Shown here piece after piece: positions 16,485-22,134 of a DNA stretch of 64,000 nt. The stretch lies in NCBI GenBank assembly GCA_028715985.1, contig JAQUQR010000001.1, positions 189,927 to 253,926 on the forward strand. Reading direction: 5' to 3'. Source of the DNA: Methanocellales archaeon. GTDB lineage: Archaea > Halobacteriota > UBA148. Each line of letters begins with the position of its first letter. The first letter of the stretch is position 1. A program made the translations under genes and the position numbers. The notes below the pieces were generated by a model. That model did not search any database and was not told the origin of the DNA. It saw only the letters and a program-made list of their open reading frames with translations.

Positions 16485-16751
16485 ATGAAAAATTCAAAAG
16501 ATTTAATTTGCCAGAGTTGCGGGATGCCGATGACAAATGAAGAAGACTTCGGAACAAATTCAGACGGCAGTAAAAACAAGGAATATTGCCGATTCTGTTA
16601 CAAAAAAGGAAAGTATACCGATGAAGGCATTACAATGAAGCAGAAAATTGAAAAGAACATAGAGATTGCTAAAAAGATGGGGATGCCAGAAGAGCAGGCA
16701 AAGGAAATGGCAAATGACATCATTCCAAAACTTAAAAGATGGAAAAAATAA
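16485..16751 (+). CDS. Small zinc-ribbon protein
   Basis: The 88-residue protein starts with a zinc ribbon: CQSCGMPM near residues 9-16 and CRFCYKKGKY near 36-45. This matches the putative zinc-ribbon family often found as a stand-alone protein or fused to regulators. The rest is a helical, Lys/Glu-rich tail (MKQKIEKNIEIAKKMGMPEE). The function is unknown; binding of a protein or nucleic acid is likely for such ribbons. Confidence 0.8.
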   Translation: MKNSKDLICQSCGMPMTNEEDFGTNSDGSKNKEYCRFCYKKGKYTDEGITMKQKIEKNIEIAKKMGMPEEQAKEMANDIIPKLKRWKK

Positions 16752-16870
16752 TCAATTGTACGCCGGGAGAGTTCTATAGCTGACAGGTTAAAGTGCTGAG
16801 TATTTTATGGCCTTGAGTTACTCGACTTATTCATGTATGCAATTTTTGAATTTGCTTATTAATAGGTGAA

Positions 16871-17124: not shown

Positions 17125-18228
17125 CTATCTAATATTCTCAAAATCCTTACTTCTACATGCAAGCTTCATTGCGAATGCATAATCTTCGAGCATATTCTTT
17201 GATGCAGAATACTCAGTAATAAAGGAAATTCCATCAAGAACTGATTTAGCCCCTACTATTGATGCGACCATTTTCGTGATTGGTTCGGGATAAGCAATCA
17301 TAAGAAAGCATACAACTCCACCTAGTGTTATTGATAATCCTTTAAATTTCAACTCTTTTTTAATATCTTTGAGTTGTGCATAAAGACGTACAGATTCGTT
17401 ACTTACTTCTTCGACAACTTCTGAAAGAGACAAATCATCCTTATGGCCAGTTAACTTTCTTACAAATTGGGTTATTGCTAGTTGATATCTCCCAAAAGAT
17501 TCCTTTTCATTTTCTCTAATTTTGACAACATCATCTAAAGTTAGCCCGTGAAGTGTCGGAACAAATAGAGTAGGTATTCCATATTGCCAACCAACTCTTT
17601 TATCTGAGAGAAGATGTTTCCATAATTTGCTTGAGCTGTGTGAGTTATATTTTACATAGACATCCCCTAAGTATGATTCCCCAAGCTTGGGGATTACATA
17701 TTCTTGGTAGGGAGTATCTGGCAAACCAGTTTCTCGTGTGAAAGATGAATTATACGTCGCAGTTCGAATTGTTGAGGGCAAGTATAACGCACTATTGCTT
17801 AGTAGTAGTGGTGAAAGACAAAACAAGATCTCCCAAATGGGACCACCCAAAATAGCCTTTTCATTATCCAAATTAAAAGTGAAGCGATTCGAAGATAGAA
17901 GAATTACTGAAGAATAGGAGGCAGCCTTCTTTGCAAAAATATTAATTGCATCTAAATCAATCCGTTCTTTCTGAAAACCCATCTCAAAAATATCGTAATG
18001 ACAACGAAAACCTTTGGCATCTTTATAAAAGTCTCTTAAACGATGCCAGTTATCCATATAATGTTGAAAGATGATACGTTCACATTCCCCTCTGCTTTCT
18101 TTATCCAAATGTCTATTCAACCACTTTAGATATTTCATGCGACTTTCAAAATCCATGTCAACTGGAGATGAAATACCTAGTTCACTGATTTTGGAATATA
18201 GTTTTGTATAAAACTCTGATGGATTCAT
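17125..18228 (-). CDS. Unknown protein with C-terminal membrane region, third gene of the CARF/UPRTase-like block
   Basis: This 367-residue protein matches no family I know. The N-terminal 300 residues look soluble, with a Trp- and Tyr-rich section (RVGWQYGIPTLF). Residues about 270-295 are likely helical. One or two hydrophobic segments follow (ITLGGVVCFLMIAYPEPI and MVASIVGAKSVLDGI). The gene lies 123 bases after the CARF-like gene and has a TATA-like sequence (AAATATATAG) just before the ATG, so it may have its own promoter. The membrane anchor and its position behind two nucleotide-sensor-like genes suggest an effector, but that is inference only. Confidence 0.6.
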   Translation of the reverse strand: MNPSEFYTKLYSKISELGISSPVDMDFESRMKYLKWLNRHLDKESRGECERIIFQHYMDNWHRLRDFYKDAKGFRCHYDIFEMGFQKERIDLDAINIFAKKAASYSSVILLSSNRFTFNLDNEKAILGGPIWEILFCLSPLLLSNSALYLPSTIRTATYNSSFTRETGLPDTPYQEYVIPKLGESYLGDVYVKYNSHSSSKLWKHLLSDKRVGWQYGIPTLFVPTLHGLTLDDVVKIRENEKESFGRYQLAITQFVRKLTGHKDDLSLSEVVEEVSNESVRLYAQLKDIKKELKFKGLSITLGGVVCFLMIAYPEPITKMVASIVGAKSVLDGISFITEYSASKNMLEDYAFAMKLACRSKDFENIR

Positions 18229-18351
18229 TTTACCTATATATTTTTAATTTTAATAATGAATTTCGGCTAACTACTTATATCGGAACTCTATTCTCATATT
18301 TCTCCAAATTGGTGTTATTTTTGTTCTTAGTCATGATATTTCTCTAATAAA

Positions 18352-19080
18352 TTAACCCGATATAACCTCCGCATCATCTTTAATCGGTTTTACCAAACCC
18401 CTTCCACGTTCAGTTAATATAATTGACTTACCCTTTTTAAAATCAACATATCTTTTTTCTTGAAGCTTTCTCACATAATAGCTAAGCTTGGCACACACAG
18501 CTTTGCTCATATCATCTGGCACAAGTATTTTATTCAATTCACCCAAACTAGACACCTTATTCACTGCAAGAGCGTTTAAAATTTCTTTCTCCCATTCACT
18601 AAACTTTATGTCCACTTTCGGTGAGAAAACCTCAACTCTAGTTGCACCAGAAGAGAATGGAGAACCTCCAGAAGGGAGATTATATTTTTCTGGTACAACA
18701 TAATATAACAACGCATTATCATAATCAATTGCAGCTAACGTAAAGGCTACAGCGCATAACTTAGTAGAAGTCGATATATTTAAATAAACTTTCGATGCAT
18801 CCTTTTCCTTTTCTAAAATATCAAGTACGGCATTCTTAGACGATTCAAATTCCGTTGGATCAAAAAATACACTAATTATGTTATTTTTATCAAATGCCAT
18901 TTTATTCAATCTTTCTTTTACTGCATCGGCATGCTTTCGTGCTTCTATTCCCCATGCCCCTTCTTTCTCATCTATCAATAAATAGATTCTATTTGCACTC
19001 AAATTTATAAAGCCATAAACTGCCCTATCTTCTTCAAAACCGATAGGTACGACATGTGTAATTCTTTGTAACATTTTCAC
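18352..19080 (-). CDS. CARF-like domain / winged-helix regulator (HFX_2341-like)
   Basis: The N-terminal roughly 140 residues look like a CARF-type Rossmann fold: IYLLIDEKE as strand and turn, VYLNISTSTKLCAVAFTLAA (residues 98-117) as the ligand loop and helix, and ALLYYVVP as the next strand. Residues about 160-235 form a winged-helix DNA-binding domain (WEKEILNALA, YYVRKLQEKRYVDFKKGKSIILTERGRG). Such CARF-HTH proteins occur in archaea with and without CRISPR, and bind cyclic or linear oligonucleotides or nucleotides. No CRISPR genes are nearby. The start codon is two bases after the UPRTase-like gene and has an AGGTG ribosome site. Confidence 0.75.
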   Translation of the reverse strand: MKMLQRITHVVPIGFEEDRAVYGFINLSANRIYLLIDEKEGAWGIEARKHADAVKERLNKMAFDKNNIISVFFDPTEFESSKNAVLDILEKEKDASKVYLNISTSTKLCAVAFTLAAIDYDNALLYYVVPEKYNLPSGGSPFSSGATRVEVFSPKVDIKFSEWEKEILNALAVNKVSSLGELNKILVPDDMSKAVCAKLSYYVRKLQEKRYVDFKKGKSIILTERGRGLVKPIKDDAEVISG

Positions 19081-19082
19081 AC

Positions 19083-20183
19083 CTATGAACCATATTTATG
19101 GACTTGTTTACGAATCTCATTCGCAGGGATGTGGACTAAATAATCAAAATCTTTGTTTATGATTCTTAGTATCTTTAGTTCATCTAAAATTGGAAGATAG
19201 GATGCTGAAGATATGTTTACTCCTTCTTCTGTCACATAATAGTGGTAAGCATAGGTATCTTTGTATGGATATTTTTTATAGCCTAAAAAACCTCTATTTA
19301 CTAAATCGTCTATAATAAAATCAAAATGTTGTTCAATATCTATATTAATCTGCAAGTCTCGTAATTTTTTGTACCAAATAATTGCTTCTTTTATCCATAA
19401 TCTAGTAGCCCACACAACTCGTCTATCAACTTTATAATCCTCATTTTCGCGTCTTTGAAGCAAGTATATTATGACGCCTTTTAAAACTTCAATATCTCCT
19501 GCTTTTGTCTTTAATAAACGCCGTATATCTTTCTGCATCTGATAAACAGGATAGTCAGCGCCAACTGTTCCAAAAACCTTATCTCCAAAATCAGGGATTA
19601 CCTCTAAAGCATCCTTTAGAAATCCAGTAGCTTGATTTATTTTCTTAGATAAAAATGTATAATTCATGTAACCATCGATATTAAAATCTGTTACTTGTGT
19701 TTGAACTGTTTTCACTCCTATGGTGTTGGCTACAATATGTGAGAATAATACTAAATCAAAAGGAAAATAGTTGCGTAGGTATCTCATTGTTTTTATCGCA
19801 GTATTTCCACGAGCGTTTATGGGATCTGCAAGCCACATAATACTGCTCTCATCAAAATTTGTTCCTTCTATTGATTCTGTATCTAACAGCGAAATTTCGA
19901 CATTATTGTTGTTATTGCCTGTCCTTTCAGAGGTTACATAAATCACATCTGCATTCGGCAACATTTTTTTCATACCGGATGCCATGGGTAACCCATCACG
20001 ATATTTAACATAAATTCTACTAATATCGGGCTTACTTAAAGTGGCAAAATCAAGCATATCTGTGGCAGTATATTCTCCAAGTACTTCTGCTGCTTTGTAT
20101 GCTACGTCTTTGCTGATTGTTTTTTGAATATTAGTATATTCTTCATCAGCTACTGGGTTTAGTAATTTTCTATGGGCAAACAT
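19083..20183 (-). CDS. Uracil-phosphoribosyltransferase-like domain fused to a winged-helix domain
   Basis: Residues about 25-206 follow the uracil phosphoribosyltransferase plan. They include the strand-turn-helix KYRDGLPMASGMKKMLPNADV (60-80), the PRPP-loop equivalent DPINARGNT (120-128), and the terminal base-binding loop IPDFGDKVFGT (196-206, compare the PGLGDAGDRxFGT of true enzymes). Residues about 210-366 look like a winged-helix region (HFDFIIDDLVNRGFLGYKK, HYYVTEEG). True UPRTases are about 210 residues and have no such tail. It may be a uracil/PRPP-sensing regulator or an enzyme-regulator fusion. It leads the minus-strand set and is followed by the CARF-like gene after two bases. 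Confidence 0.7.
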   Translation of the reverse strand: MFAHRKLLNPVADEEYTNIQKTISKDVAYKAAEVLGEYTATDMLDFATLSKPDISRIYVKYRDGLPMASGMKKMLPNADVIYVTSERTGNNNNNVEISLLDTESIEGTNFDESSIMWLADPINARGNTAIKTMRYLRNYFPFDLVLFSHIVANTIGVKTVQTQVTDFNIDGYMNYTFLSKKINQATGFLKDALEVIPDFGDKVFGTVGADYPVYQMQKDIRRLLKTKAGDIEVLKGVIIYLLQRRENEDYKVDRRVVWATRLWIKEAIIWYKKLRDLQINIDIEQHFDFIIDDLVNRGFLGYKKYPYKDTYAYHYYVTEEGVNISSASYLPILDELKILRIINKDFDYLVHIPANEIRKQVHKYGS

Positions 20184-20453
20184 TTTTTAATCTATGTAAG
20201 GTTATTAATCTATTTACCTATAAATCTTTCTATTGGTAAAAAATATAAGTAAAGGGTAAAGTTTTATTTTATGGTAGTAATAGGGTCTGAAGGCATGATG
20301 AAAAAGGCGACAAGTAGACTATGAAATATTCTATAATTATTGTAATACAAAAAATACTAATATCACTGAGACCTATGCCTATGTAAGCAACAAAGATTTG
20401 AACACTATTAAATGTCCACTGGATTTAATGTCAATGAGAGGTGATGCAGAAAA

Positions 20454-20576
20454 ATGATAAAAAATGTGACACAAGAAGAGATATACGACCTTGAGGTCCG
20501 ACCTAATGTCAATATAGGTGTATATACGAATTTGAGTTCGGATGGAGTTATCCGCCGTCCGCCTTTCATGAAGTAG
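20454..20576 (+). CDS. Small ORF (40 residues) with a strong ribosome site, upstream of the dCTP-deaminase-like gene
   Basis: An ATG at 20454 starts MIKNVTQEEIYDLEVRPNV and ends at the TAG at 20574. A perfect GAGGTGAT Shine-Dalgarno sequence lies at 20438-20445, eight bases before the ATG. The next gene starts 28 bases after its stop. The ORF could encode a small partner or act as a leader peptide. Coding is inferred from the ribosome site and position only, since no family is recognisable at this size. The divergent region 20184-20437 upstream holds no other gene that I can support. Confidence 0.45.
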   Translation: MIKNVTQEEIYDLEVRPNVNIGVYTNLSSDGVIRRPPFMK

Positions 20577-20604
20577 TAGGCTGTATAAGGGGGCACCAAT
20601 AGCA

Positions 20605-21411
20605 ATGGTACTCATGACTGATGTTGACATAAAAAAGGCTTTAGGAAAAGATATTGTCATAGAGCCATTTTCAGGTAGATCTCTGACTCCTGTAGGCTAC
20701 GACTTCAGAGTTGGAGACTTTTTATTTTCATTGGAGCATGGCTTGTTAGAACCAAAAGAAGGAGTCTATTTATTACCACCTAAAAGTACCGTTCAAATAA
20801 TGAGCAAAGAATCTCTGTGGGTTTCAAATAGAATAGGTGGCACATTCCATTCCAAAGTCTCCCTTGTCTCAAAGGGTCTATCTCACATCTCCACTACTTT
20901 AGATCCCGGATGGTACGGGCCACTTTTGATCACAGTGAGAAACAATTTAGACAAAGAAATTCCAATCAAAACGATGGACCCATTTGTTACCCTCGTTTTT
21001 TTCAAGGTTTCAACTCCCACAAAGACTCCCCATTTGAAGCCGGAGTTTCGAAGAGACATACTTTGTTCTCAGTTAAATAATCAAACAGAAGCATATATCC
21101 GCAAGGTAAGTACTCTGCTGGATGACAAAAAGATACTTGCTAAATTTGAGAGTAAGGTGAGAGAGGCAAACAGGCCTATGATCTTAAAGGTATTGGAGTC
21201 AGCAAGGAGCAAAGGATGGAGAGAAGTAATAAGCAGCATAGTAGTATGGACGATTTACATAGCTATAGCCGGCCTAGTTGCCCTCCCGATATATTGGGAC
21301 ACGATCAAAGAATTATTTTACAATAGTAGTTATGATTCGAGGGTTTTCGTTGTTCAGATCACAGCTATTGTTTCCTTGGTCTCTCTCATTGTTAACATTA
21401 GGAGGAGATAG
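20605..21411 (+). CDS. dCTP deaminase-like domain fused to two membrane segments; catalytic Glu missing
   Basis: Residues about 1-150 are a trimeric dUTPase/dCTP-deaminase fold (PVGYDFRVGDFL, HSKVSLVSKGLSH, LDPGWYGPLLITVRNN). Aligned on DPGW, the position of the catalytic glutamate of dCTP deaminase (VLEF in the E. coli enzyme) is T110 (LITV), so deamination is unlikely. Residues about 150-200 are helical and charged. Two hydrophobic segments end the protein (about 209-232 and 246-265, with a final NIRRR). Authentic Dcd is about 190-200 residues and soluble. The protein is therefore probably a membrane-bound nucleotide-binding sensor or effector. The dUTPase gene follows 89 bases later. Confidence 0.7.
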   Translation: MVLMTDVDIKKALGKDIVIEPFSGRSLTPVGYDFRVGDFLFSLEHGLLEPKEGVYLLPPKSTVQIMSKESLWVSNRIGGTFHSKVSLVSKGLSHISTTLDPGWYGPLLITVRNNLDKEIPIKTMDPFVTLVFFKVSTPTKTPHLKPEFRRDILCSQLNNQTEAYIRKVSTLLDDKKILAKFESKVREANRPMILKVLESARSKGWREVISSIVVWTIYIAIAGLVALPIYWDTIKELFYNSSYDSRVFVVQITAIVSLVSLIVNIRRR

Positions 21412-21500
21412 TAGAGACCTTATTAATTCACGGATGATCGTTACTTATTGCGCCGTAATGGCTGTAGTACTTTATCTATCAAAACTAAAGGAATATTAAT

Positions 21501-21953
21501 ATGTCAAAAGAAAAAGCTCGCTTTGTAATCAAGATCAAACGATTGGACCCTGCCGCCCAGATCCCTCGATACGAATATTTGAGTGACTCGGGAACAGATA
21601 TCTACGCGGTAGCTGATTGTACGTTGCAACCGTTCGAAAGAAAGGCAATTCCTACAGGTCTCTGTGCTGAAGTGCTTTCTGGCTTCGAGTTGCAAATTCG
21701 GCCAAGGAGCGGACTATCTCTTGAGAGCGGGATAACTGTGCTGAACACTCCTGGAACTATTGATTCTGGCTATAGAGGAGAGATCAAAGTCATATTGATA
21801 AATCTAAGCTCAGAAAAATATCAAATCAAAAAGGGTCAGAAAATCGCCCAGCTAGTGGTTGCTCCTGTTATCCATGCCAACTTCAAAGAAGTAGAGGAAT
21901 TGTCTGAGTCAGAGCGGGGTACTAGAGGGTTCGGGTCTACCGACGTAGTTTAG
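21501..21953 (+). CDS. dut: dUTP diphosphatase
   Basis: This trimeric dUTPase hydrolyses dUTP to dUMP and pyrophosphate, keeping uracil out of DNA. All five family motifs are present in order: SDSGTDIYA (28-36), PRSGLSLE (68-75), GTIDSGYRGE (85-94) with the catalytic D88 and the base-stacking Y91, GQKIAQLVV (112-120), and the C-terminal arm RGTRGFGSTD (139-148). The length (150) is normal, so it should be active. It follows the dCTP-deaminase-like gene on the same strand after an AAAGGA ribosome site. It may be a housekeeping gene rather than part of the block upstream. Confidence 0.93.
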   Translation: MSKEKARFVIKIKRLDPAAQIPRYEYLSDSGTDIYAVADCTLQPFERKAIPTGLCAEVLSGFELQIRPRSGLSLESGITVLNTPGTIDSGYRGEIKVILINLSSEKYQIKKGQKIAQLVVAPVIHANFKEVEELSESERGTRGFGSTDVV

Positions 21954-22047
21954 ATCAAAGCTTTTTTCGTAATTATGGACGTCAATATCGTTTTTTTTAC
22001 AATATCTAATTAATATATATTTAGAGGCACTTAAACCTTTAGTTATA

Positions 22048-22134
22048 CGCCGGGAGAGGGATTTGAACCCTCGTGTCCCAAAGGGACACTGGTTTAGCAA
22101 ACCAGCGCCTTAGACCAGACTTGGCTATCCCGAC
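22048..22134 (-). tRNA. tRNA-Ser (anticodon GCT)
   Basis: The 87-base gene folds into a tRNA with a seven-pair acceptor stem (GTCGGGA with TCCCGGC, one G-T pair). It has an anticodon arm CTGGT-TTGCTAA-ACCAG, a long variable arm (TGTCCC/GGGACA) typical of serine tRNA, and a T arm with GGGTTCAAATCCC. The discriminator base is G. The CCA end is not encoded. It begins 16 bases after the SRP RNA and is likely co-transcribed with it. Confidence 0.95.

Follow-up and report, generated by a model that had tools for sequence, protein, structure and literature searches.

A tRNA-Ser island of a Methanocellales archaeon carries two separable mobile modules, a putative regulator pair and a DCD-like membrane protein with a dUTPase

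Five genes on an island at tRNA-Ser

We analyzed a window of 64,000 nucleotides from a Methanocellales archaeon (contig JAQUQR010000001.1). The five open reading frames considered here, which an initial annotation made from the sequence alone had placed at the same coordinates and on the same strands, all lie in an AT-rich 5.3-kb segment with tRNA-Ser at one boundary and a repeated copy of the 3' end of that tRNA at the other. The features of this segment, in window coordinates, are as follows.

16756 to 16771, plus strand: left 16-bp direct repeat TTGTACGCCGGGAGAG, putative attL (15/16 identical to 22043 to 22058)
17125 to 18228, minus strand: 367-aa protein, family unassigned, possible weak C-terminal membrane hairpin (hydropathy)
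18352 to 19080, minus strand: CARF (HFX_2341_N)-winged-helix regulator, 242 aa, GTG start, module 1 (Pfam, NCBIfam, and PADLOC matches)
19083 to 20183, minus strand: UPRTase-like 366-aa protein with a C-terminal extension of ~140 aa, module 1 (Pfam, NCBIfam)
20184 to 20249, minus strand: module 1 promoter/leader, BRE/TATA-like GAAAgATTTATA (conserved in L065, see below)
20605 to 21411, plus strand: DCD-2TM, a 268-aa protein with a DCD-like domain and a pair of membrane segments at the C terminus, module 2 (profile search, hydropathy)
21501 to 21953, plus strand: dUTPase with each of its five motifs recognizable, module 2 (NCBIfam)
22043 to 22058, plus strand: right 16-bp direct repeat, putative attR, overlapping the tRNA 3' end (repeat match)
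22048 to 22134, minus strand: tRNA-Ser(GCT), insertion target (ARAGORN; island-free in relatives L046 and L060)

The pairing of the two repeats at 15 of 16 positions had 0 matches in shuffled sequence, and the GC content of the island is 35.4% versus 41.8% for the window. In a same-genus genome with flanks ~89 to 99% identical, the tRNA-Ser gene is accompanied by 288 bp where the window has ~5.9 kb, and relative L060 has the same tRNA-Ser and lacks the right end of the island. The att-like repeat of the tRNA 3' end, together with the relative whose site is empty, identifies the region as a small tRNA-Ser island gained by horizontal transfer. It carries no integrase, the sole Phage_integrase match of the genome being on another contig, and no recognized defense gene was found on the archaeal island itself.

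The insertion site is variable, since in another genome of the genus (L056:1-4700) the slot is occupied by transporter, rhodanese/MBL-fold, and YeeE-like (sulfur) genes. Just outside the left repeat lies a zinc-ribbon-like gene of 88 aa (16485 to 16751), which is missing at the slot of the sister genome and broken by stops in another relative.

The regulator pair and the orphan gene

The 242-aa protein was initially described as a CARF-like domain fused to a winged helix, and the profile searches agree. It matches HFX_2341_N (PF19810; E = 2e−20; 73.7 bits, above the cut-off) and PADLOC CARF3, and the Csa3 model spans its residues 10 to 224 (E = 1e−5), the winged-helix part being weak when taken alone. 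The order of domains and the HFX_2341_N match are shared with HFX_2341/Crr and Csa3 (PMC11434293, PMC4012209). The island regulator differs from these in being mobile, in being paired with a UPRTase-like gene, and in scoring far below the cut-off of the HFX_2341 NCBIfam equivalog (22.6 bits versus 500).

Two bases away, as first reported, lies the gene of the 366-aa protein, which has a UPRTase domain at about residues 62 to 206 (Pfam E = 4.5e−8, above the cut-off; NCBIfam E = 1.8e−10). Its score against the uracil phosphoribosyltransferase equivalog is 40.9 bits versus a cut-off of 114, and the catalytic PRPP motif DPMLATG reads DPINARG, a change that makes a regulatory pocket likelier than an enzyme. 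The UPRTase half of the proposed UPRTase/winged-helix fusion therefore stands, but the winged helix is doubtful: the best match of the C terminus (HTH_34, E = 0.15) was obtained with the homologue only, and AlphaFold gave pLDDT values of 32 and 39 for the protein and its C terminus, respectively. PurR of Bacillus is an earlier case of a PRT domain serving purely as a sensor, and it likewise combines a PRT-fold pocket, here apparently turned regulator, with an extra domain (PMC8789054). PurR uses another PRT domain and has its DNA-binding domain at the N terminus, whereas the island protein has a UPRTase-type domain and a C-terminal extension with putative DNA binding.

Among 84,980 species genomes, scanned with a sensitivity limited to close relatives, one relative of the UPRTase-like protein was recovered, in a Methanosarcinales MAG (L065), where the CARF gene again lies behind the UPRT gene. 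The 393 other genomes of the phylum gave just two distant partial matches (24 to 26% identical), no UPRTase-like homologues were found in viral contigs, plasmids, or phages, and no CARF-like homologues were found in viral contigs. Relatives of the CARF protein were present in 27 of 394 genomes, with no UPRT, DCD, or 367-aa gene within flanks of ~1.5 kb.

The window and L065 share a 1.9-kb cassette with 83% DNA identity, which runs from 66 bp before the UPRT start to 5 bp past the CARF stop. Outside it the genes are unrelated: a 449-aa gene lies downstream in L065, and no DCD, dUTPase, or 367-aa gene was found beside the pair. By BLAST, the leader homology covers these 66 bp ahead of the ATG, and it reaches a little farther in a global alignment; at the upstream edge of the leader, the hexamer TTTACC is directly repeated at a distance of 20 bp. 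The CARF proteins are 87 to 88% identical and the UPRTase-like ones 71%, both genes being under purifying selection (dN/dS of 0.15 and 0.32, respectively). Three stretches aligned to the PRPP- and base-binding motifs of UPRTases, picked after viewing the alignment, are identical at 60 of 62 positions, versus 258 of 366 overall (P = 2e−8). In L065, a repeated stretch of 177 nt (75% identical) from the beginning of a thymidylate-synthase-like gene lies on either side of the cassette, whose GC content is 36% versus 46% for the contig, so here as well it appears to be an insertion. Module 1 would be a pair of regulators that moves together with its promoter and lands beside different genes, with two predicted pockets, one of the PRT type (for a pyrimidine base, a nucleotide, or PRPP) and one of the CARF type.

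The 367-aa gene is an orphan beside the two modules. Its product had no Pfam, PADLOC, or PHROG match and no homologue among 374 other genomes of the phylum. The case for a membrane protein, as it was first called, is weak, since hydropathy gives one marginal peak near residues 295 to 313 (mean 1.72) and another within the putative globular part. Kinship with the 449-aa gene that occupies the corresponding place in L065 was considered and rejected, the two being unrelated by BLAST and hhalign.

The DCD-like membrane protein, its dUTPase, and a sister family

The domain structure initially given for module 2 was borne out. The 268-aa protein carries a DCD domain (PF22769, E = 2.4e−8, 34.7 bits versus a cut-off of 27; phmmer to PDB 8y1w, E = 5e−17) and two clear membrane segments (residues 208 to 226 and 247 to 265), and the gene that follows encodes a canonical dUTPase (NCBIfam E = 1.5e−51). 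The likening to the dCTP deaminases of antiphage defense was not: the protein scores 52.1 bits versus a cut-off of 92.8 for the dCTP deaminase NCBIfam equivalog, and it retains neither the catalytic Glu nor RSSxxR, which makes it unlikely to be a deaminase. The defense enzyme AvcD is of the zinc-dependent cytidine deaminase type; no such catalytic domain was found in DCD-2TM, which is of the DCD/dUTPase type and matches no PADLOC model. AvcID resembles module 2 in linking deoxycytidine/deoxyuridine nucleotides to phage defense, but AvcD is catalytically active as a deoxycytidylate deaminase and is paired with an RNA antitoxin, whereas DCD-2TM lacks the deaminase residues and has two membrane segments (PMC10511110). 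Just upstream of the DCD gene, a 40-codon plus-strand open reading frame (MIKNVTQEEIYDLEV..., 20454 to 20576) may be a small gene or a remnant.

In two plasmids of Bacillota (L116 and L117), from Peribacillus and from Priestia megaterium (pFDU301C), a DCD-2TM gene is directly followed by a dUTPase gene, without the regulators of module 1. Their proteins form a clade with that of the window (support 99/99; three loci), marked by the signature TFHS[KR]VS[IL]VSKG[FL][GS]HISTTLDPxWxGPLL. A SIR2 gene that matches PADLOC PDC-S25 immediately precedes the Peribacillus pair, upstream of it, and the Priestia pair has a BnzB-like gene and a type I restriction gene nearby. No member of this clade was found in phage records, and matches in viral contigs span 36 to 60 residues only.

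A second DCD-2TM clade (support 100/99) is paired with a MazG-like pyrophosphatase, an assignment below the Pfam cut-off, and with an FMN-barrel protein. Long branches were flagged by the tree program, so we rely on the compactness of the clades and not on how they join. This cassette directly follows GajA/GajB (Gabija) in a Rhizobium beringeri plasmid (L119), and a CBASS-type phospholipase and a CD-NTase in a Sinorhizobium SM11 plasmid (L118), neighbors not seen with the cassette of RU11/001. In Priestia a DUF4062 gene (PDC-S60) is close by. The cassette also occurs in three viral contigs and in prophage settings; none was found at the DNA level in Escherichia coli genomes.

Every protein of both clades lacks the deaminase Glu and RSSxxR. 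All 13 viral DCDs recovered keep the Glu and an RSSxxR-type motif and have no membrane segment. A free-standing DCD-like protein of the host (141 aa) keeps the RSSxxR-type motif and also lacks the Glu, so the loss of the Glu alone is no proof of a sensor role.

Several related genes were observed elsewhere. Five membrane-anchored DCD-like proteins of other archaea are just 19 to 24% identical to DCD-2TM over the full length. Such genes lie by a SIR2-TPR gene (L048:464-4618), a thymidylate-kinase-like gene (L049:2381-3790), and a deoxynucleoside kinase gene (L050:2767-4400). In L051:3391-4644 and L052:6359-7610, a guanylate-kinase-like domain is fused to a DCD domain that is followed by one membrane segment at the C terminus, in one reading frame in the former and split over two in the latter, with an HD-domain gene (a possible dNTPase) nearby. 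A Rhizobium plasmid has a DCD-TM gene near a uracil-DNA glycosylase gene (L121:3538-5693). In another genome of the archaeal phylum, a decayed stretch of 41 residues shares 63% identity with the DCD of the window (L047:6711-6833), which suggests past transfer.

Interpretation of the two modules

The five genes are real, yet they form two separable mobile modules on one island. Our overall reading, an island with an orphan gene, a regulator pair (module 1), and a module 2 that is most likely antiphage, seems to us about evenly poised between right and wrong. The island, the boundaries and recurrence of the modules, the loss of motifs, and the defense neighbors are observed, and from these we infer the ligand, the gating, the antiphage activity, and the direction of regulation. 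A pyrophosphatase partner in both clades, lost catalytic residues, two membrane segments, and defense neighbors together fit a nucleotide-gated membrane effector. The DCD domain, with its deamination residues lost, would be a probably trimeric sensor of pyrimidine deoxynucleotides on a membrane anchor. A rise of the ligand during infection, plausibly dUTP or a related dNTP, would trigger the two membrane segments, which could then damage or silence the cell, and the co-encoded dUTPase would act as an off-switch by preventing the ligand from building up in healthy cells. The MazG-like pyrophosphatase and the FMN-barrel protein would take the place of the dUTPase in the second clade. We tentatively propose, with rather less confidence than we give the overall reading, that DCD-2TM is a new family of membrane effectors of archaea and bacteria, gated by a pyrimidine deoxynucleotide and switched off by a (d)NTP pyrophosphatase, in a cyclase-free defense reading the dNTP pool.

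Two-TM effectors of CBASS and Pycsar also join a nucleotide-binding domain to membrane segments. Module 2 differs in having no cyclase, a DCD/dUTPase barrel as its putative sensor, and a pyrophosphatase as partner. The dUTPase-Stl system of SaPIs also ties a dUTPase to a small island with nucleotide-related regulation (PMC4914113), but no Stl-like gene was recognized here, and the dUTPase is encoded by the island and paired with DCD-2TM. If the proposal is right, shifts in dUTP or related nucleotides induced by phages would be sensed directly by a former enzyme domain coupled to membrane segments, and neither a cyclase nor a second messenger would be needed. In DefensePredictor, dUTPase and MazG appear as predicted, untested defense domains (PMC13092281), and the Priestia, Peribacillus, and rhizobial plasmid loci would be clonable material for that role.

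The dUTPase is a common cargo gene, which counts against an antiphage reading, and module 2 could instead be nucleotide-pool housekeeping, in which a membrane-tethered DCD-type dUTP/dCTP hydrolase and the dUTPase shield the DNA of the element from uracil. The intact dUTPase, the only trimeric one seen in the genome (an indirect argument), the free-standing Glu-less protein of the host, and the (d)NMP or nucleoside kinases adjoining other archaeal membrane-anchored DCDs all agree with this. DCD-2TM has also lost the RSSxxR that enzymes keep, a membrane anchor has no obvious use in pool cleaning, and the bacterial neighbors include defense systems, so we regard housekeeping as unlikely. We give still less credence to the single pyrimidine-stress system of the initial annotation, in which the regulators control the divergent DCD-2TM/dUTPase pair. 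The divergent genes do share a 421-bp intergenic region, and all five lie within the att-like repeats. However, each pair occurs elsewhere without the other, and the three promoters share only 8- to 10-mers of chance size, with no common operator. The UPRT/CARF homologues of L065, which sit without a deaminase-like gene, are the kind of neighborhood that the initial annotation had itself named as speaking against its proposal; its nucleotide-related regulators and a possible link to defense survive, the single five-gene system does not.

The CARF regulator could also act outside the island. No cas genes lie within it, as initially noted, nor does the CARF gene adjoin cas10 or a type III locus, as a type III accessory would. 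The genome, however, encodes type I-B Cas1b, Cas3, Cas5b, and Cas7 on another contig, so that the argument drawn from a lack of CRISPR fails beyond the locus. Overexpression of HFX_2341, the founder of the family, reportedly represses type I-B cas genes (PMC11434293), and with such genes in the host, an effect in trans is possible: the island regulator would tune host CRISPR immunity in favor of the island. HFX_2341 is only a distant relative (the 22.6 bits given above), its effect may be indirect, and the island regulator moves together with the UPRTase-like gene (n = 2), so we find this improbable, if slightly less so than the single system. Elsewhere in the genome (contig C2:6414-6626, L098), a second cas1 gene is represented by a fragment that an internal stop interrupts.
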